DNA of 40,771 nt, taken from NCBI GenBank assembly GCA_002701365.1, contig NZUK01000030.1, positions 1 through 40,771 of the forward strand, given 5' to 3'. A program made the position numbers and the translations under genes. This document shows positions 7,051 to 15,733 of this stretch, one piece after another (the first letter of the stretch is position 1; each line of letters begins with the position of its first letter). Under the pieces are notes generated by a model. That model saw only the letters and a program-made list of their open reading frames with translations, was not told where the DNA came from and ran no database searches. The DNA comes from Flavobacteriales bacterium (GTDB lineage Bacteria; Bacteroidota; Bacteroidia; Flavobacteriales; TMED113).

Positions 7051-8370
7051 ATGCATATCTACGTATATTCAATTATTATCCTTACATCATTTAACTTATT
7101 ATACAGTCAAATTATCTCCTATGAATTAATGGCAACATGGTCTTTAGATGAAGTAAGCGATCTGTACGATGAATTTGGAATTCCTGAATCAGCTAGTCAA
7201 ATAAACTATCCCGTGGATGGTTATAAAATACTATATATGACTCCCGATTATAATGGAGAATTAACAATATGTTCTGGTGCAATTTTTCTTCCTGCAGGAA
7301 TTAATTGTCCTCCACCTTTAATAAGTTGGCAACACGGCACTGAATCAAATGACGAAGGAGCTCCGTCTAATGTTGGAAATAGCTACAATGATCTGATTGG
7401 TGTAGTCTGTGCTTCAGGTGGATACATTGTAACTATGAGTGACTTTATTGGATTGGGAGAAGGTGAGGGAATTCATAATTACATGCACGCGCAAACCGAA
7501 GCAACCGCAACAATTGATCTAATTATGTATGGAAAAGAATTTGCTAATGATATGCTAGGAACACCAACTAACGATCAATTGTTTTTATTTGGATATTCTC
7601 AAGGAGGACACGCAACTATGGCTACAGTAAAAGAAATTGAGGCTAATTACTCTGAAGAATTAACAATTACTGCATCTGCACCAATGGCAGGACCTTATAG
7701 CATGTCTGAAATACAAAGTGAAATGCTGGAATCAGGACTACCCTACCCAAATCCTGGGTATTTACCCTATTTAATATTTTCTTATAATAAGATCTACAAT
7801 ATCTATGATGATATTAATGATGCATTAATATCTCCTTACAATACATTTTTATATGACATGTATGATGGGTCTTATGACATGTGGGAAATTAATAACACAT
7901 TACCTTCTACACCAATTGATATTTTTCAAGAAGATTACTACCAAGAATACTTAAATAATAATAATCACCCACTAAGACTAGCTCTAATTGACAATGACGT
8001 CTATGATTTTGTCCCTCAATCTCCAATGAGATTAATTCATTGTAGTGGTGATGACAATGTAGCGTATGAAAGTTCTGAACTTGCCTATAATTACTTTATA
8101 ACAAACGGAGCAGAAAATATTGAATTAATCGATGGAGGTAATTTTAATCATGAACAATGTGCTTCCCTTGCTATTTTAGGAGGTAAATTATGGATAGACA
8201 CCTATGCTGAACTTTGTCAACCAAGTCAGGTAATAGAGCTTAATGATCAAGGGAAAAAAACTATCATTAAAACCATAGACCTAATTGGAAGGAAAAACCA
8301 AAAAGATAATCCATTTTTAATAAATATTTATAGCGATGGAAGCTATCAAAAGAAATTCCAAACTAATTAA
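7051..8370 (+). CDS. Secreted alpha/beta hydrolase with a short C-terminal sorting-type tag
   Basis: The 439-residue protein starts with a signal peptide (residues 1-20, ending LLYSQ). The hydrolase core has an oxyanion-region segment ISWQHGTES near 91-99, DFIGLGEGEG at 131-140, and the nucleophile elbow GYSQGGHA with Ser-183. A later SGDDNV and a NHEQC segment probably carry the Asp and His of the triad. This pattern fits secretory lipases and prolyl-oligopeptidase-like esterases; the substrate is unknown. The last 45 residues contain IDLIGR followed by IYSDGSYQKK, a pattern shared with three other exported proteins here, which suggests secretion by the type IX system. A palindrome precedes the gene, and it ends 1 nt before the convergent aldehyde dehydrogenase. 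Confidence 0.82.
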   Translation: MHIYVYSIIILTSFNLLYSQIISYELMATWSLDEVSDLYDEFGIPESASQINYPVDGYKILYMTPDYNGELTICSGAIFLPAGINCPPPLISWQHGTESNDEGAPSNVGNSYNDLIGVVCASGGYIVTMSDFIGLGEGEGIHNYMHAQTEATATIDLIMYGKEFANDMLGTPTNDQLFLFGYSQGGHATMATVKEIEANYSEELTITASAPMAGPYSMSEIQSEMLESGLPYPNPGYLPYLIFSYNKIYNIYDDINDALISPYNTFLYDMYDGSYDMWEINNTLPSTPIDIFQEDYYQEYLNNNNHPLRLALIDNDVYDFVPQSPMRLIHCSGDDNVAYESSELAYNYFITNGAENIELIDGGNFNHEQCASLAILGGKLWIDTYAELCQPSQVIELNDQGKKTIIKTIDLIGRKNQKDNPFLINIYSDGSYQKKFQTN

Positions 8371-8371
8371 T

Positions 8372-9754
8372 TCAGCGTAACATTTTAGTTATTTTCTGCT
8401 TTAAACTACTATATGGTGGATAAATCAGTTTTGCAATTGAAAAACCAGACATTTGGAACAATACTGACTTTGCATTTGAAAATTCTAAAAACCCATACTT
8501 GCCTCCATTTTTACCTAAACCACTTGAATTAACACCACCAAAAGGTAAGTAAGGATTGGCATATTGAAGCATGCATTCATTAATAGCAACCGTACCTGAA
8601 CTTGTACTATTTAAAAAATAATTTATTTCTTTTTTGGACTTGCTAAATAGATATAGTGCAAGTGGTTTATCATCTTGATTAATAAACTCAATCACAGAGT
8701 TAAAATCGTTGTATATTATGATAGGTAAAATAGGTCCAAATATTTCATTATGTAAAATAGGATTCTCTAGACTAACATTATTTAAAATAGTAAGTGGCAC
8801 TGATTTATTATTATTTGCTCCATTGGAAGACTGTATCTCAATATTTGCACCATAATCAATAGCATCATTTAAAATTTTATGAAGTCTATTCATATGGTTA
8901 CTATTGACAATTTCACCAAAATCTGATTTATTTTTAAAAAAATTATCCAAAACAATTTTAGCATGTAGAATGAATTTTTCATATTGATCTATATGTACAA
9001 ATACATGATTAACGGCAATACATGTTTGACCGCAATTAACAAATTTAGACCACATAATCTTTTCAACAGCATCTTTTATGTTAGCACTTTTGCCCAAAAC
9101 AGCGTGGTTTCTGCCTCCTAATTCTAAAGTGACAGAGGATAAATTTTTTGAAGCAGCACGCATTACTAATTTTCCGACATCAGGGGAACCAGTAAAAAAA
9201 ATATGATCATATTTTAAATTAATTAGGTAGCTCCCTATGTCAGCACCTCCCTCTACTACAGCAACTTCACTTTCTGAAAAGAGAGAGGATAGCATCTTTA
9301 AAATTAAAGCACTAGTATGTGGAGTAAACTCAGATGGTTTAACTGTAACACAATTACCAGCAGCAATAGCAGAAATTACTGGATTTAATGTTAAATTAAA
9401 AGGATAGTTCCAAGGAGAAATAATTAAACAAACTCCCTTTGGCTCATGATAAATTCTAGACCTTGTTCCAATAAGTTGAATAGGAGCCCAAACTGACTTA
9501 GTAGACGTCCATTTATTAATATTGGCTAAAGTGAATTTAATATGCTGTAAAACAGTATTTAATTCCGTGGAATTAAATTCAGCTATGGGTTTTTTATAAT
9601 CACGAACACATGTAGAATATATTAAATCTTCATTTTTAAGAATCCAATTTCGAATGCTTTTAATTTTATTAATTCGATCTTTAACACTAGAATAAATTAT
9701 CTTTTTATGAAAATATATTTTTTGAGCATGAAATATATTGTCTAGTTTTTTCAT
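8372..9754 (-). CDS. Aldehyde dehydrogenase (class 3-like)
   Basis: A cytoplasmic NAD(P)-dependent aldehyde dehydrogenase of 460 residues, a length typical of the class 3/fatty aldehyde group rather than the longer (about 490) classes. Key motifs are seen: PWNYPFN at 114-120, cofactor-binding KPSEFTPHTS at 139-148, FTGSPDVGK near 187-195, catalytic Glu-211 in LELGG, and nucleophile Cys-245 in GQTCIA. The EIFGPILP segment is also present. It oxidises aldehydes to carboxylic acids; the exact substrate is not readable. Its start overlaps the stop of the upstream copper monooxygenase gene by 4 nt, so the two are translationally coupled, although that enzyme is exported and this one has no signal peptide. 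Confidence 0.93.
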   Translation of the reverse strand: MKKLDNIFHAQKIYFHKKIIYSSVKDRINKIKSIRNWILKNEDLIYSTCVRDYKKPIAEFNSTELNTVLQHIKFTLANINKWTSTKSVWAPIQLIGTRSRIYHEPKGVCLIISPWNYPFNLTLNPVISAIAAGNCVTVKPSEFTPHTSALILKMLSSLFSESEVAVVEGGADIGSYLINLKYDHIFFTGSPDVGKLVMRAASKNLSSVTLELGGRNHAVLGKSANIKDAVEKIMWSKFVNCGQTCIAVNHVFVHIDQYEKFILHAKIVLDNFFKNKSDFGEIVNSNHMNRLHKILNDAIDYGANIEIQSSNGANNNKSVPLTILNNVSLENPILHNEIFGPILPIIIYNDFNSVIEFINQDDKPLALYLFSKSKKEINYFLNSTSSGTVAINECMLQYANPYLPFGGVNSSGLGKNGGKYGFLEFSNAKSVLFQMSGFSIAKLIYPPYSSLKQKITKMLR

Positions 9755-12093
9755 TGGCTAAAAATAAATTGTTTTTCAATACGTCCACTCTTATATATAA
9801 CGATGACAGGCCCAAATGTTTGATCATAAATTTTTCTTCCTAAGGGATCTACAATAGTAATTATACCATCTGTTAATTGAATACTGTTTAAATCAAATGT
9901 CATACATGCATTTTGACAATCTTCGATTGTCATAAAAGGTACAATTCCATTACACCCTCCCCATAAAAATTCTTCACATTGATTATTTTGTTGATTAAAA
10001 TAATAGATTAGAATTGCACCATCACAATTCCCTACTTCAGGAAGTAAATCACAGTTTTCGGTAATAAAAATATTATCCCACTGACATTGAATAAAATCAT
10101 AAAAATCAGTATAAAGCTCCAAAGAAACATCTTCAGTAAAAATTGCACCGTCTTGAATTTCTAAATAATGAGTGCTTTCATCAACAAGAGCGTAATAATT
10201 TACATTTTCAATAGCAAGTGTATCCCCAAATGAATTAAATAATACAAAACCCGGATAAGAAAAAACGTCATCCCATGAAGAGTTTGTAACATTAACGACA
10301 AATTGCGACGATCCGCTCTGATATATAGATGTGATTTCCAAATTTGAACAGTCTTGTTGTTCATATTCATCACAAATATTATTATTATTTATATCGTTGA
10401 TACAAACACAATCCCCCAGTATGCATTCATACCACTCATCACAAAGTACAGTTGCACACTCTATTTCATCACAAATTCCATCTAAATCTAAATCATTTAT
10501 ACAATTATCAAAACAATCATAAAACTCCTGAGCATATTCACATGAACCATCATTTTCTGTTGCATTCATATCAAAATTACAAGCATCTATATCTGTACAA
10601 CCTAAAGTACAACTGGTGTTCCAAAATATATTTTGGTCTGGATCAGAGATAATACTGTAATCAGCCCAAAAGTTTTGACATTCTTGCTCAGAAACACTAT
10701 AATCACATATTTGTGTAGATAAATTAAAACAACAAGGAGTGTGACAGACACCACAATCATCTAGAATACCACATGTTCCATCATCAATAGTTGAATTTGG
10801 ATTAAAATTACATGCACTAGCGTCGGTACAGCCGAAATCATCTGTATTTCCTAGATAGATATTCTCATCTCCTTCTTGGTAAGGTACATAAGCAAAAGGC
10901 AGAAAGAACATTTCACAAGTTGTGTAATCACACCAATACATATCTTGAGGTGGAGAATTAGGATTGGTTGGATTACTAGCTGTATTGTCGTATGTAGCAT
11001 AAGCATGTATTGTATAACCTGCTGGCAACTTTAACATATATTCTGGCTGATAAAATGTTTGCCAATTAAAATCCCAATCTGGGATACTAATTATGGGAAT
11101 AGTATCTCCATTATTTTCTGCATATATAAGCCATGATTTACCTATTAGGTGCATATGAGGAAGAACACTAATAATACTCATGTCAAAATCTACATAATAA
11201 GAATTATAATGTGTATAAATCTGATTTGCAGGAATTGCAAGTTGAGTATCTAATAAAGTAAGTACTTCTATTTCTCTTTCCACCTCTTCTTCTTTAAAGA
11301 ATAAATTTATTGAGCTCTGATCATATTGATCAATGGAACTTGGAGCATAATGCATTTGTATAGCAATATCAGCTCCTGCCGGCAAAAGTAAACCAATGTC
11401 ATTATTCCAAGTTGGCGCTACCATTCCTGGAGTATAACCAGCCGCAAATTGAGGAATAGCACCGGTACAAAAACCACTTTCACATTCATAGCCATATTCA
11501 GGAGTTGATGCGTCTAATGCCGCCATTTCTCCAGAATTATCAATACTAATTAAAGTGTGATGAACTGCTTCTAAATTACCTGGCATAATCTCAATAGACT
11601 TGAGGTACTTATCCTCTGAAAAATTGGTAGAAAAAACAAAAACTCTGTAATCATCTTGATTATTTCCTTCAATTAAATACTCTTCTGACATAGTTAAAAC
11701 AAAGTCTGGATTACCAATGGCAGATCCTTCAGGAAAATCAGGAATAGATGCTTCTAAAGCAGGATCTCCTTGAATCATACCACCATCAACCCAATCAGAT
11801 ATTAATTGCTTATCATTTTCTGACAATACACGTTCACCTATGAAACTTGAATACTCACTGTCCGCATGCCATGGCGGCATATATCCAGATTGCGTAACAT
11901 ATTTAATCATCATCCCAAGTGAAGCTACTTCCTCGTAACTAGTAAATGGCATGGGGCCAGATTGTCCTACACGATGACATTCAGTACAGTTATTATAAAT
12001 AATAGCCGACACATCTTCACTAAAATTTACTTGTGAAAATAAAACCGCTGGAAAAAATAAAATATAAAAAATGTTTTTCATAGTTTTGGGCAT
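9751..12093 (-). CDS. Exported cytochrome c / type II copper monooxygenase with Kunitz domain
   Basis: A multidomain exported protein of 780 residues. The signal peptide covers residues 5-20; an internal ATG at residue 5 (12081) would give a more normal start. Residues 24-110 form a cytochrome c-like domain with heme motif CTECH (36-40) and a probable Met ligand in GYMPPWH. Residues 125-400 resemble the PHM/DBM-type copper monooxygenase core: VHHT (177-180), MHY (247-249), HMHLIGK (313-319) and Met-395 as candidate copper ligands. Two Cys-rich ACNF modules follow (about 420-545), then a YECILGDCVC stretch (556-564). A Kunitz/BPTI-type domain occupies 681-730 with all six cysteines. A tag with DPLGRK...IYKSGR ends the protein. 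Substrate unknown; such enzymes hydroxylate activated C-H bonds. The fusion of a heme domain suggests electrons arrive through it. Confidence 0.85.
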   Translation of the reverse strand: MPKTMKNIFYILFFPAVLFSQVNFSEDVSAIIYNNCTECHRVGQSGPMPFTSYEEVASLGMMIKYVTQSGYMPPWHADSEYSSFIGERVLSENDKQLISDWVDGGMIQGDPALEASIPDFPEGSAIGNPDFVLTMSEEYLIEGNNQDDYRVFVFSTNFSEDKYLKSIEIMPGNLEAVHHTLISIDNSGEMAALDASTPEYGYECESGFCTGAIPQFAAGYTPGMVAPTWNNDIGLLLPAGADIAIQMHYAPSSIDQYDQSSINLFFKEEEVEREIEVLTLLDTQLAIPANQIYTHYNSYYVDFDMSIISVLPHMHLIGKSWLIYAENNGDTIPIISIPDWDFNWQTFYQPEYMLKLPAGYTIHAYATYDNTASNPTNPNSPPQDMYWCDYTTCEMFFLPFAYVPYQEGDENIYLGNTDDFGCTDASACNFNPNSTIDDGTCGILDDCGVCHTPCCFNLSTQICDYSVSEQECQNFWADYSIISDPDQNIFWNTSCTLGCTDIDACNFDMNATENDGSCEYAQEFYDCFDNCINDLDLDGICDEIECATVLCDEWYECILGDCVCINDINNNNICDEYEQQDCSNLEITSIYQSGSSQFVVNVTNSSWDDVFSYPGFVLFNSFGDTLAIENVNYYALVDESTHYLEIQDGAIFTEDVSLELYTDFYDFIQCQWDNIFITENCDLLPEVGNCDGAILIYYFNQQNNQCEEFLWGGCNGIVPFMTIEDCQNACMTFDLNSIQLTDGIITIVDPLGRKIYDQTFGPVIVIYKSGRIEKQFIFSQ

Positions 12094-12182: not shown

Positions 12183-13469
12183 ATGAAAAGTACAATAACA
12201 TGCGACATGGAAGGCGTAATACTTACAATGAATAGTGATGCCGAAAAAATTTTTGGATATAAAAAAGACGAATTAATTGGAAAAAAAAGAGTTTCTCTAT
12301 TTTCACCAGGTGAAATTGTTCTTCAAAATGTGGAAGGATGGTTAAATACTGCTATTAAAGAGGGTGAATATAAAGGTGAAACCTATTTTTTAAAGAAAAA
12401 TGGTGAAAAATTTAATGCTCGAATTAGAATAACACCAACTTTTGCAAATGGTAAAGACAAACCTCAAACTGGATACTGTGGTGTAACTGAAGTGATCGAC
12501 AAAAATGTTGAAGTGCCTATTAAATTTTCAACTAAATTAATTAAAATGTTAGCGATTACTAGAATGCCATTTACATCCGCTTCATTACTACCAATATTTG
12601 TTGTAGGTGCTTATTTTGCTGGTTCAGGTGACGGTTTATTTAGTATTCAACAATTTACACTTACAATTGTAGGTATCTTGATTGCTCACCTAGGAATTAA
12701 TGTATTTAATGATTATTTTGATGGTAAGGACGGTACTGATGAAGCAAATGCTGAATACTTCCAACAAGTTTCAGGAGGAAGTAGGGCCATAGAACTTGGA
12801 CTAATCACTCTTAAAGGAACTCGTAAACTAGGTATTATATTAACAATCATCGCACTTAGTATAGGTGGACTAATACTATCTAACATTAACGAAGCTAATT
12901 TTACAGGAGCGATGCAAATAACAGTTGCAGGTTTATTATTAGGCTATTTTTATACTGCTCGACCAATAAGATTAGTGGCCAGAAGAGGTTTAGGAGAAAT
13001 AGCTATTTTCTTAGCATTTGGACCACTTTTAACACTTGGTACTGGGTATGCAATATTTAACGGTGCATTTGAAGAATCAGTACATTTTGTAAATTGTTTG
13101 CTAATGGGTATACCTCTAGGATTATTAACAACTAACATATTACTTATTAATGAATTTCCTGACATGAAGAGCGATGCAACTACAGGAAAAAATCATCTTG
13201 TTGTTACTTTTGGAAAAAAAGCAAGTAGATGGATTTATCTTGTTTTATTGTTTCTAGCTGTTGGCTCATCTTTCTACATGTATCAAGAGATGAACAATAT
13301 ATATCTTTTAATTCCTACAATATTTTGTTTATTATTTGGCTTATATATCTTTAAACATATTCTCAAGCATTATGAACTAAGAAGCCTGGTAGACGCAAAT
13401 TGGAAAACAATTGGACTTCAAGCTTTGTACTCAATAATACTATGTATTTGCTTAATGCTAGGTTTTTAA
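12183..13469 (+). CDS. PAS domain fused to a UbiA-family prenyltransferase
   Basis: This 428-residue protein joins two domains. Residues 1-108 form a PAS sensor domain, with DMEGVILTMNSDAEKIFGY, a central helix, and FLKKNGEKFNARIRITP as the C-terminal strands. It lacks the LOV photoactive-cysteine motif. Residues 116-428 are a UbiA-type membrane prenyltransferase with about eight to nine helices. The two Mg-diphosphate binding motifs are intact: NDYFDGKDGTD at 176-186 and NEFPDMKSD at 323-331. UbiA enzymes attach prenyl chains to aromatic acceptors; the pattern suits the MenA (menaquinone) branch, but the acceptor is not certain. I know of no standard UbiA with a PAS domain, so the fusion is unusual. 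It is followed after 13 nt by a cytochrome c gene, likely in the same operon. Confidence 0.88.
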   Translation: MKSTITCDMEGVILTMNSDAEKIFGYKKDELIGKKRVSLFSPGEIVLQNVEGWLNTAIKEGEYKGETYFLKKNGEKFNARIRITPTFANGKDKPQTGYCGVTEVIDKNVEVPIKFSTKLIKMLAITRMPFTSASLLPIFVVGAYFAGSGDGLFSIQQFTLTIVGILIAHLGINVFNDYFDGKDGTDEANAEYFQQVSGGSRAIELGLITLKGTRKLGIILTIIALSIGGLILSNINEANFTGAMQITVAGLLLGYFYTARPIRLVARRGLGEIAIFLAFGPLLTLGTGYAIFNGAFEESVHFVNCLLMGIPLGLLTTNILLINEFPDMKSDATTGKNHLVVTFGKKASRWIYLVLLFLAVGSSFYMYQEMNNIYLLIPTIFCLLFGLYIFKHILKHYELRSLVDANWKTIGLQALYSIILCICLMLGF

Positions 13470-13482
13470 GTATATTATTTAT

Positions 13483-14148
13483 ATGAAACAAAACTTATTT
13501 TTTGTAATTATTGTATTGTGGAATTATAGTATTACATGTCAATCTATTGATTACGAAACTGAAATTCAACCTATTTTTGATAATAGTTGCATGCCATGTC
13601 ATAGTGGATCTAATCCAAGTAGCGGTTTAGATTTAACATCATATGACGGGGTAATGACTGGCAGTAATAGTGGACTAGTTGTTATATCCGGTGATTTTGA
13701 AAATAGTCTATTATGGCAAGAGATAATCTCTGGAGACATGCCAAATAATGTTGCAAATAATAATCTAGGAATACCCGATTTAAATAATCAAGAAATAGAA
13801 TTAATTGAAAATTGGATCCTAGAATTGCAATGTGAATTAGTTGATTGTGAAACAGGCTATGAGTGTGTCTTAGGAGAATGTATTTGTATTTCTGATAATG
13901 ATCAAGATGAAATATGTGATGAATTAGATAATTGCCCTAACACTTACAACCCTAATCAAGAAGACTCAGATAATGATGGATTAGGTGATGATTGTGATCC
14001 AATGCCATTAAATATTTATGAATTAACTCATAGTAAAGAGATAATTAAAATACTGAATCTTTCAGGTCAAGAAAGCATAAAAAATAAAAACACGTTAATC
14101 TACATATATAACGATGGATCTATTCAAAAAACTAGACAATTAGAATAG
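13483..14148 (+). CDS. Exported cytochrome c with calcium-binding thrombospondin type 3-like repeats
   Basis: The 221-residue protein begins with a signal peptide (residues 1-20). Residues 22-115 form a cytochrome c-like domain of the planctomycete type, with the heme motif CMPCH at 36-40 and a candidate Met ligand in SGDMPNN. A Cys-rich segment with YECVLGECIC follows at about 124-133, matching a segment in the copper monooxygenase upstream. Residues 137-175 carry Asp-rich repeats (NCPNTYNPNQEDSDNDG) typical of thrombospondin type 3 calcium repeats. The C-terminal tag contains LNLSGQ...IYNDGSIQK, the same type as in three neighbours. It probably acts at the cell surface as an electron carrier. 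It ends 1 nt before the convergent arylsulfotransferase-like gene. Confidence 0.82.
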   Translation: MKQNLFFVIIVLWNYSITCQSIDYETEIQPIFDNSCMPCHSGSNPSSGLDLTSYDGVMTGSNSGLVVISGDFENSLLWQEIISGDMPNNVANNNLGIPDLNNQEIELIENWILELQCELVDCETGYECVLGECICISDNDQDEICDELDNCPNTYNPNQEDSDNDGLGDDCDPMPLNIYELTHSKEIIKILNLSGQESIKNKNTLIYIYNDGSIQKTRQLE

Positions 14149-14149
14149 T

Positions 14150-15733
14150 TTATTTTATTGAATACATTTTCTTAAAAGTACCGTCATTATAAATTTCAAA
14201 GTAAAGAGAATTAGATTTTTTCATTTCGCGACCTAGAAAATCAATTTTATTAATTAGAGATCTCTGTTTAGCTATTTCTTTTAATGAAACATTATTACAT
14301 AAATCAGGATAAATATAGGGAGGACCTTCAATTGGTGAACCTGGAGTTAAATCATAATTACTTAAACCAATATAATCTGCACTAAACCTTTCACACCTAA
14401 ATGCACTGTTAGAAGGTGAATTAGGTATTCCACCAAAAATTTCATTATCAGGTGGGAGTTCACCTTGATTTAAAATAAGATTACCACTATATACAGGGTT
14501 AATGTATTCCCAGACAATATCCCCGAAATTAGTAACTTCAAAAAACCTTCCTTGCGGACCACTACAAATTAAAGTATTTCCGTTAGGTAATCTTTGACAA
14601 CCAGAAATATGATCAGCATAAAAATCAGAGGGATTTGGAGCAGAATATGTCCAAAATAAATTTAAAGGGCCATAAGCAGAGTCTTCATTTAAACTATAAT
14701 TATAACCAGATGTAGGTGGCTGTATCTCATCGACACTAGAAAAGTTTCCATTAGGCCTTCCTTGTCCATTGTTAAAAATTAAAATATTATTTGCCCCAGG
14801 TAAATCTTCATCAACCCACTGTACGTGATGTGGTCCAAATAAAACTCTATCAATAGAATCTCCTCTATTGTAAGCCATTGGATTTCCCCATCTATATAAA
14901 ATATCTCCACCCATCCCAGCGTTACCACCAGAATTGTTAGCAGCTTCTTCAGTAGTAGTACTGTGATCAATAATCCAGAACTCACTAATTGCTCTTGAAG
15001 TAATTATTATTTGATCAAGTTCTTCATTATAATCTAATGAATTAGCATGAATCCAATCTGCCTTACCACCAGCAGAATTTTGACCAGGTCCCATGTAATT
15101 AATATTAAAACGTTCAGGATGATCAGAAATATTTCCATAGTTAGGAAGTGAAGAATCAAAATCTTGAATCAAATGATCCCAAAGATGCCATTCCCAAACA
15201 ATATTAGCACTATTAGTTCCCACCGGCTCTATCTCAATAATATGCTCAGGCCAAAGTTCATTATCTTGCAATAAATCAGGATTCCTACCCATGGCAATAG
15301 CTTCTTCAAATGTTTTACGTTCCCAGGCAAGAATTAAAATATTCCCATTAGGTAAAACCTCAACATCATGGTGTTGATGATAATTATCACTATTATAATC
15401 AAAAGACCATATCACATTACCTTCCCAATCTAATTTTTCTAAAGCACCACCGATTCCGCCTCCTTGAAAAACCTGACTAGAAATACGATTAGTTCTTAAA
15501 AGCATTCCATCTTCTAAAAGATATACTGCTAATCCAGAACGATAATCACTTTGCCATTCATTTACTAGATTTCCACAATTATCAATCAAATAAGTTTTTT
15601 TTGTTGGACTAAACAATGTAAAGCCTTCATAAGCATCTTGATCATATGAAAAAACTCCAACAGTCTGATTTTGAGTTAATAATAGATACGGAAAAAACAA
15701 GACTAAGAATGTGCTAAAAATAAAATACTTCAT
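14150..15733 (-). CDS. Exported arylsulfotransferase-like protein
   Basis: The 527-residue protein has a signal peptide (residues 1-20). Its body looks like the arylsulfotransferase (ASST) six-bladed propeller family: GFTLFSPTKKTYLIDNCG, LEKLDWEGNVIWSFDY, HHDVEVLPNGNILILAWE, DWIHANSLDYN, and FGPHHVQWV are spaced along the chain, with the His-rich segments that carry the active site. Such enzymes transfer sulfate between phenolic compounds; many marine relatives are of unknown substrate and might not be active. The tail KIDFLGR...IYNDGTFKK fits the shared short C-terminal tag. It lies between the convergent cytochrome gene and, 39 nt upstream, the DUF423 gene on the same strand. Confidence 0.8.
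   Translation of the reverse strand: MKYFIFSTFLVLFFPYLLLTQNQTVGVFSYDQDAYEGFTLFSPTKKTYLIDNCGNLVNEWQSDYRSGLAVYLLEDGMLLRTNRISSQVFQGGGIGGALEKLDWEGNVIWSFDYNSDNYHQHHDVEVLPNGNILILAWERKTFEEAIAMGRNPDLLQDNELWPEHIIEIEPVGTNSANIVWEWHLWDHLIQDFDSSLPNYGNISDHPERFNINYMGPGQNSAGGKADWIHANSLDYNEELDQIIITSRAISEFWIIDHSTTTEEAANNSGGNAGMGGDILYRWGNPMAYNRGDSIDRVLFGPHHVQWVDEDLPGANNILIFNNGQGRPNGNFSSVDEIQPPTSGYNYSLNEDSAYGPLNLFWTYSAPNPSDFYADHISGCQRLPNGNTLICSGPQGRFFEVTNFGDIVWEYINPVYSGNLILNQGELPPDNEIFGGIPNSPSNSAFRCERFSADYIGLSNYDLTPGSPIEGPPYIYPDLCNNVSLKEIAKQRSLINKIDFLGREMKKSNSLYFEIYNDGTFKKMYSIK

Follow-up and report, generated by a model that had tools for sequence, protein, structure and literature searches.

A conserved fusion of a PAS domain to a MenA/UBIAD1-like UbiA prenyltransferase and its possible role in quinone salvage

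The window, that is, the whole stretch of 40,771 nucleotides of flavobacterial DNA that was analysed here, contains a gene that joins a PAS domain to a complete UbiA prenyltransferase in a single open frame. This PAS-UbiA gene is, with very little doubt, a real and conserved fusion. The explanation that we favour, if only tentatively, is that PAS-UbiA, a MenA/UBIAD1-like enzyme, adds a prenyl chain to a (naphtho)quinol that the cell salvages or acquires in some other way, and that its PAS domain is obligatory and binds a ligand; the substrate and the ligand are both predictions. The gene and its parts are as follows:

12183..13469, + strand: PAS-UbiA fusion gene, one ATG-to-stop frame, 428 aa
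12186..12494, + strand: PAS domain, residues 2-104 (Pfam PAS_9, AlphaFold2, foldseek and alignments)
12495..12554, + strand: linker, residues 105-124, the least conserved part, leading to the N-terminal helix that precedes the transmembrane core
12555..13466, + strand: UbiA prenyltransferase domain, residues 125-428, MenA/UBIAD1-like (Pfam, NCBIfams and profile)
12699..12740, + strand: first Asp motif, N173-xxx-D177-xx-D180-x5-D186 (sequence and alignment)
13149..13175, + strand: second Asp motif, N323-xxx-D327-xxx-D331 (sequence and alignment)

An initial annotation of this DNA had recognised a PAS domain ahead of a full UbiA enzyme with both Asp motifs, and this architecture is borne out by Pfam, AlphaFold2 and sequence alignment. 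Pfam assigns residues 5-91 to PAS_9 (E = 8.6e-10, 39.3 bits against a gathering threshold of 27) and residues 137-395 to UbiA (E = 2.3e-27, 96.3 bits against 34.2). The full-length AlphaFold2 model, made with 36 homologous fusion sequences (mean pLDDT 87, pTM 0.81), begins with the PAS fold (residues 2-104, with strands at 2-8, 12-16, 63-70, 76-87 and 95-104), which a short linker and then a helix at 115-126 connect to the UbiA transmembrane helices; an AlphaFold2 model of the PAS domain alone has a pLDDT of 92. In foldseek searches the UbiA half of the model matches UbiA structures and UBIAD1, and both Asp motifs are invariant across the 36 aligned fusion sequences.

The annotation had also allowed for two genes being joined by a frameshift or an assembly error. 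Two copies with an in-frame stop (one in locus L015, the other a TAA flagged in genome G134) are all that speaks for such a join or for a chance ORF fusion, and its probability is practically nil: the same open frame is found in more than 40 independently assembled genomes, all 13 fusions in a tree of 42 UbiA domains form one clade (support 97/100), and purifying selection acts on the PAS and UbiA halves alike (pN 0.05-0.17 against pS 0.54-0.75, covering both domains). A single origin is the best explanation for PAS-UbiA. The database search that the annotation had proposed did recover the same architecture elsewhere: a scan of the genome collection returned 74 loci, and more than 40 further genomes have full-length PAS-UbiA, at 43-85% identity. 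The PAS domain is kept in every relative above ~43% identity, except where a contig end cuts the gene (L016, L048, L051).

The hosts, the majority of which are represented by incomplete MAGs, include Flavobacteriales MAGs, Marinoscillum-like bacteria, Saprospirales, Kapabacteria, Ignavibacteria and one Marine Group II-like contig (L050); the bulk belong to Bacteroidota and Ignavibacteria, and many are marine or freshwater bacteria. Two loci labelled Methanomethylicia (L025) and Bradyrhizobiaceae (L049) stand very close to bacterial fusions from other groups, which for L049 the tree shows as well, and are probably mis-binned. In a phylum-wide sample the fusion occurs in 12 of 395 genomes, its own genome included. 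The fusion is more widespread than the initial annotation had expected. Searching the full text of open-access papers for PAS together with UbiA brought up no published account of it. No relative of PAS-UbiA was found in IMG/VR, so viral carriage is not seen there. On the Marine Group II-like archaeal contig, the protein encoded at L050:4665-6290 has a pair of EF-hands ahead of the PAS domain (2.1e-11), so that its order is EF-hand-PAS-UbiA.

The UbiA domain is closest to the MenA group. Its top NCBIfams matches are MenA families (2e-28 and 1e-27), with the chlorophyll synthase and archaeal-lipid synthase families far weaker. With MenA (TIGR00751, NF004751, TIGR02235) it shares the UbiA fold and both the DXXDXXXXXD and NxxxDxxxD motifs; the first MenA motif has been given as DXXDXXXXXD (PMC9235831), and D177-xx-D180-x5-D186 fits this form. 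In contrast to MenA, PAS-UbiA has an N-terminal PAS domain, falls below the MenA cut-offs (TIGR00751, 70.1 vs 102.15; NF004751, 99.6 vs 264; TIGR02235, 96.8 vs 225) and occurs in several lineages that lack MenD or MqnA/D. Nor does it group with canonical MenA in the tree of 42 UbiA domains, where the MenA proteins of its relatives and of Kapabacteria form a separate clade (100/99); the deeper branches of this tree lack resolution, and its outgroup, CyoE, is very long. The best solved relative of the family profile is UBIAD1 (E = 1.4e-14), the vertebrate MK-4 synthase (PDB 8djk), which also ranks second by E-value in foldseek (TM 0.76). UBIAD1 has no PAS domain and only ~20% identity to the fusion, whose activity is predicted; what the two enzymes would have in common is a naphthoquinol acceptor that is not made de novo. 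The UbiA half probably carries out MenA/UBIAD1-type prenyl transfer: its anatomy is directly observed and its chemistry is predicted from the family. In such a reaction the domain would move a polyprenyl chain from its diphosphate onto a hydroquinone-type acceptor.

The host genome (1.55 Mb, 86.6% complete) contains CyoE, PAS-UbiA and one very weak UbiA. A standard menA, which the initial annotation had suggested locating elsewhere in the genome, was not found there, leaving PAS-UbiA as the sole MenA-type UbiA. The weak match, at G000:C19:8689-9216 (L003:1282-2115), is a very divergent UbiA-like membrane protein encoded beside a kynureninase-like gene; it scores under the Pfam threshold, and none of the MenA models matches it. 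We searched for the two known menaquinone routes by way of MenD and of MqnA/MqnD. MenD is absent above the cut-off from all 12 genomes of family f1 (G000-G011, the host included), and MqnA/MqnD are absent from all 10 f1 genomes that were searched for them, the host again among them. Similarly, the Marinoscillum-like genomes G065-G067 have no MenD or UbiE over the cut-off and no MqnA/D, with two UbiA matches each. Alternative complex III oxidises quinol; its NrfD/ActC subunit is encoded in 11 of the 12 f1 genomes as well as in G065 and G066, and an ACIII-cox cluster is visible in G065. Whatever PAS-UbiA does, the source of quinone in family f1 and in G065-G067 is unexplained by MenD, MqnA and MqnD.

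One reading of these data would be that PAS-UbiA simply replaces MenA in the ordinary menaquinone pathway, with the PAS domain as a passenger. The MenA-like family and motif, the lack of any other MenA-type UbiA in the host, and UbiE, which is present in the host genome and, in L033, immediately precedes the fusion, are all in its favour. However, family f1 lacks MenD, and MqnA/D where searched; the PAS domain is conserved above the enzyme; and the fusion also occurs alongside known routes, with MenD in the Saprospirales genome G069, canonical MenA beside UbiE in Kapabacteria, and MqnA/D in f11 genomes, so that it is not simply a missing MenA. We consider such a replacement unlikely.

The fusion persists in genomes in which MenD, MqnA/MqnD and any other MenA-type UbiA go undetected, and coexists elsewhere with canonical MenA, which makes the prenylation of a naphthoquinol obtained by the cell its most likely job. 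Such survival of a paralogue where the de novo routes have been lost is in keeping with its working on a ring from another source, in salvage or remodelling. The naphthoquinol acceptor would be salvaged, or made by a route that the search did not recognise. Human gut bacteria, for comparison, prenylate menadione that is given to them, and MenA has been suggested to catalyse this step (PMC7928036). Counting against salvage is the presence of UbiE in the host and in G001, G006, G007 and G008: salvage of a menadione-like ring would need no methyltransferase, whereas salvaged DHNA would need one. Nor did an uptake gene come to light. Quinone salvage or remodelling is accordingly put forward as a possible role and not as a probable one. 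A broader and rather unlikely version would make PAS-UbiA the signature enzyme of an unrecognised route of quinone salvage or biosynthesis, in which the PAS domain takes up the quinone head group or some other ligand; it would serve those streamlined Bacteroidota of the sea, and perhaps also those Marine Group II archaea, whose respiration uses quinones although both known menaquinone pathways are lacking.

The acceptor could instead be a non-quinone or another phenolic compound and the product a prenylated metabolite, such as an antioxidant, a pigment or a lipid. The fusion clade is distinct, known quinone routes coexist with it in some genomes, and the UbiA-297 enzyme of a marine flavobacterium offers a precedent, as it prenylates quinolines such as 8-HQA (PMC9235831). 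A homogentisate dioxygenase encoded near the gene in Kapabacteria points in the same direction. Nevertheless, the nearest families make quinones, and we regard a non-quinone acceptor as doubtful. Homogentisate itself, considered because of this dioxygenase and of the pterin dehydratase that adjoins the fusion in L010-L014, was rejected as a general acceptor because HPPD, although present in the host genome, is missing from several fusion genomes: it is absent from G065-G068, and none was found over the cut-off in G073, G074, G081, G171 and G313, the last two of which are 100% complete.

The PAS domain is the better conserved half of the protein. Across the 36 sequences, mean pairwise identity is 68% in the PAS domain, 54% in the UbiA domain and 47% in the linker, and the PAS residues C7, R36, S41-P42-G43, W53, C99 and T102 are invariant in the alignments. 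A search of 60 related genomes for PAS-only proteins gave a single weak match (E ~5e-6), which suggests that this subtype of PAS goes with the fusion. The usual sensor PAS is exchangeable, a pattern from which the conservation seen here departs; a domain that is conserved above its enzyme and never separated from it looks more like a functional component that the protein requires than like a sensor that can be swapped.

The initial annotation had proposed control of the enzyme by oxygen or redox state through the PAS domain, and sensing of these or of light by a bound haem or flavin would gate prenylquinone synthesis directly. The hosts are aerobic, and in foldseek the PAS model resembles the FAD-PAS domains of NifL and Aer, the haem-PAS domain of DosP, and LOV domains. 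Its best structural match, however, is 3lyx (Colwellia CPS_1291; TM 0.80-0.87), whose title names no cofactor. The PAS fold is common to the fusion, 3lyx, Aer and NifL (TM 0.66-0.87), but the fusion carries its PAS domain on a membrane enzyme and not on a kinase, a cyclase or a chemoreceptor. The flavin contacts of Aer include R115, H53, N85, R57 and W70 (PMC9668731). In an alignment to Aer of E. coli K-12, H53, N85, R115, R57 and W70 correspond to R36, F69, T102, F40 and W53, respectively, so that one of these five contacts is matched (W70, by W53) and four are replaced. A conserved His of the kind used for haem in FixL and DosP is absent from the PAS domain across the 36 sequences, and the PAS domain of the present protein has no His at all. 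The photoactive Cys of LOV domains sits in the E-alpha region, in the motif GxNCRFLQ; the corresponding position in the alignment reads GKKRVSLF and has no Cys. Judged from these residues, the canonical FAD, haem and LOV readings are not supported, nor is control by oxygen or redox state, and cofactor-based sensing appears improbable. The domain may still use a cofactor in some uncommon way, or C7 and C99 may act as a redox switch. These two invariant cysteines lie on the first and the last PAS strand, respectively, and might, speculatively, make a redox or metal site.

The domain might also be structural, dimerising the enzyme or presenting its substrate without any signal. It is never found apart from the enzyme, is highly conserved, has no known cofactor motif and has almost no N-cap, all of which such a role would accommodate; we nonetheless find it rather unlikely, since conserved residues, T102 and F69 among them, fall where Aer contacts its ligand, which suggests a bound ligand. 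On balance, control by the PAS domain through a small ligand seems somewhat the more probable, as opposed to a purely structural role. In the favoured explanation the domain would be an obligatory ligand-binding or regulatory module outside the known haem, FAD and LOV kinds, with its ligand and its coupling to catalysis both predicted. It precedes the first transmembrane helix and would lie on the cytosolic face, where the topology of UbiA enzymes in general places the active site.

If quinone salvage is the correct interpretation, a whole marine bacterial family respires with a quinone whose head group comes from neither known route, and PAS-UbiA is a handle on the origin of that head group. 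Independently of this, a PAS domain on a membrane prenyltransferase, conserved above the enzyme that it adjoins, would be a new coupling of a ligand to quinone-type chemistry, accessible as one soluble domain and one membrane enzyme.

The cytochrome genes that the initial annotation had placed next to the fusion are indeed there:

13483..14148, + strand: PSCyt1-domain protein, 221 aa, 14 bp downstream of the fusion
9751..12093, - strand: CxxCH cytochrome-like protein with a Kunitz/BPTI domain, 780 aa, divergent, upstream of the fusion

The PSCyt1 gene is possibly co-transcribed with the fusion. These neighbours are kept in close relatives only (L005-L007); elsewhere the fusion is accompanied by a pterin dehydratase, an SDR gene, pantothenate-kinase-like and phosphatase-like genes, or a divergent purH (the last three named by eye), and in Kapabacteria it stands alone between opposing genes. 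As neighbours vary by lineage, the context leaves the function of the fusion undefined, and an assignment of function from operons was dropped for this reason. In L036 the genes upstream of the fusion include one of the split-barrel/DUF2470 (HugZ-like) type and an ABC transporter of the periplasmic-binding-protein kind; a haem-linked role drawn from this context was likewise dropped, as other genomes do not have it. The divergent neighbour at 9751-12093 encodes a secreted-looking protein with a CxxCH cytochrome-like start and a Kunitz/BPTI match (Pfam, 8.2e-11), a domain best known from animals. Four exported-looking neighbours (7051-8370, 9751-12093, 13483-14148 and 14150-15733) have in common an LGR/LIGR-like motif followed by a C-terminal tail with the pattern ...IY.(S/D)G...K....., perhaps a sorting signal.

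Among other UbiA proteins in the collection, one from Heimdallarchaeota (L062) has a long N-terminal extension with no Pfam match. One archaeal MAG and one Dehalococcoidia MAG encode MenA-like UbiAs (L053:4362-5999 and L054:4428-5981) that, like PAS-UbiA, have a small N-terminal domain; unlike in PAS-UbiA, this domain is a pyridoxamine-phosphate-oxidase-like (PNPOx-like) split barrel in place of PAS. In the tree of 42 UbiA domains both group with a Thioploca UbiA, with no resolution of their placement relative to the PAS clade. These proteins indicate that small N-terminal domains have been added to MenA-like UbiAs in other ways as well.
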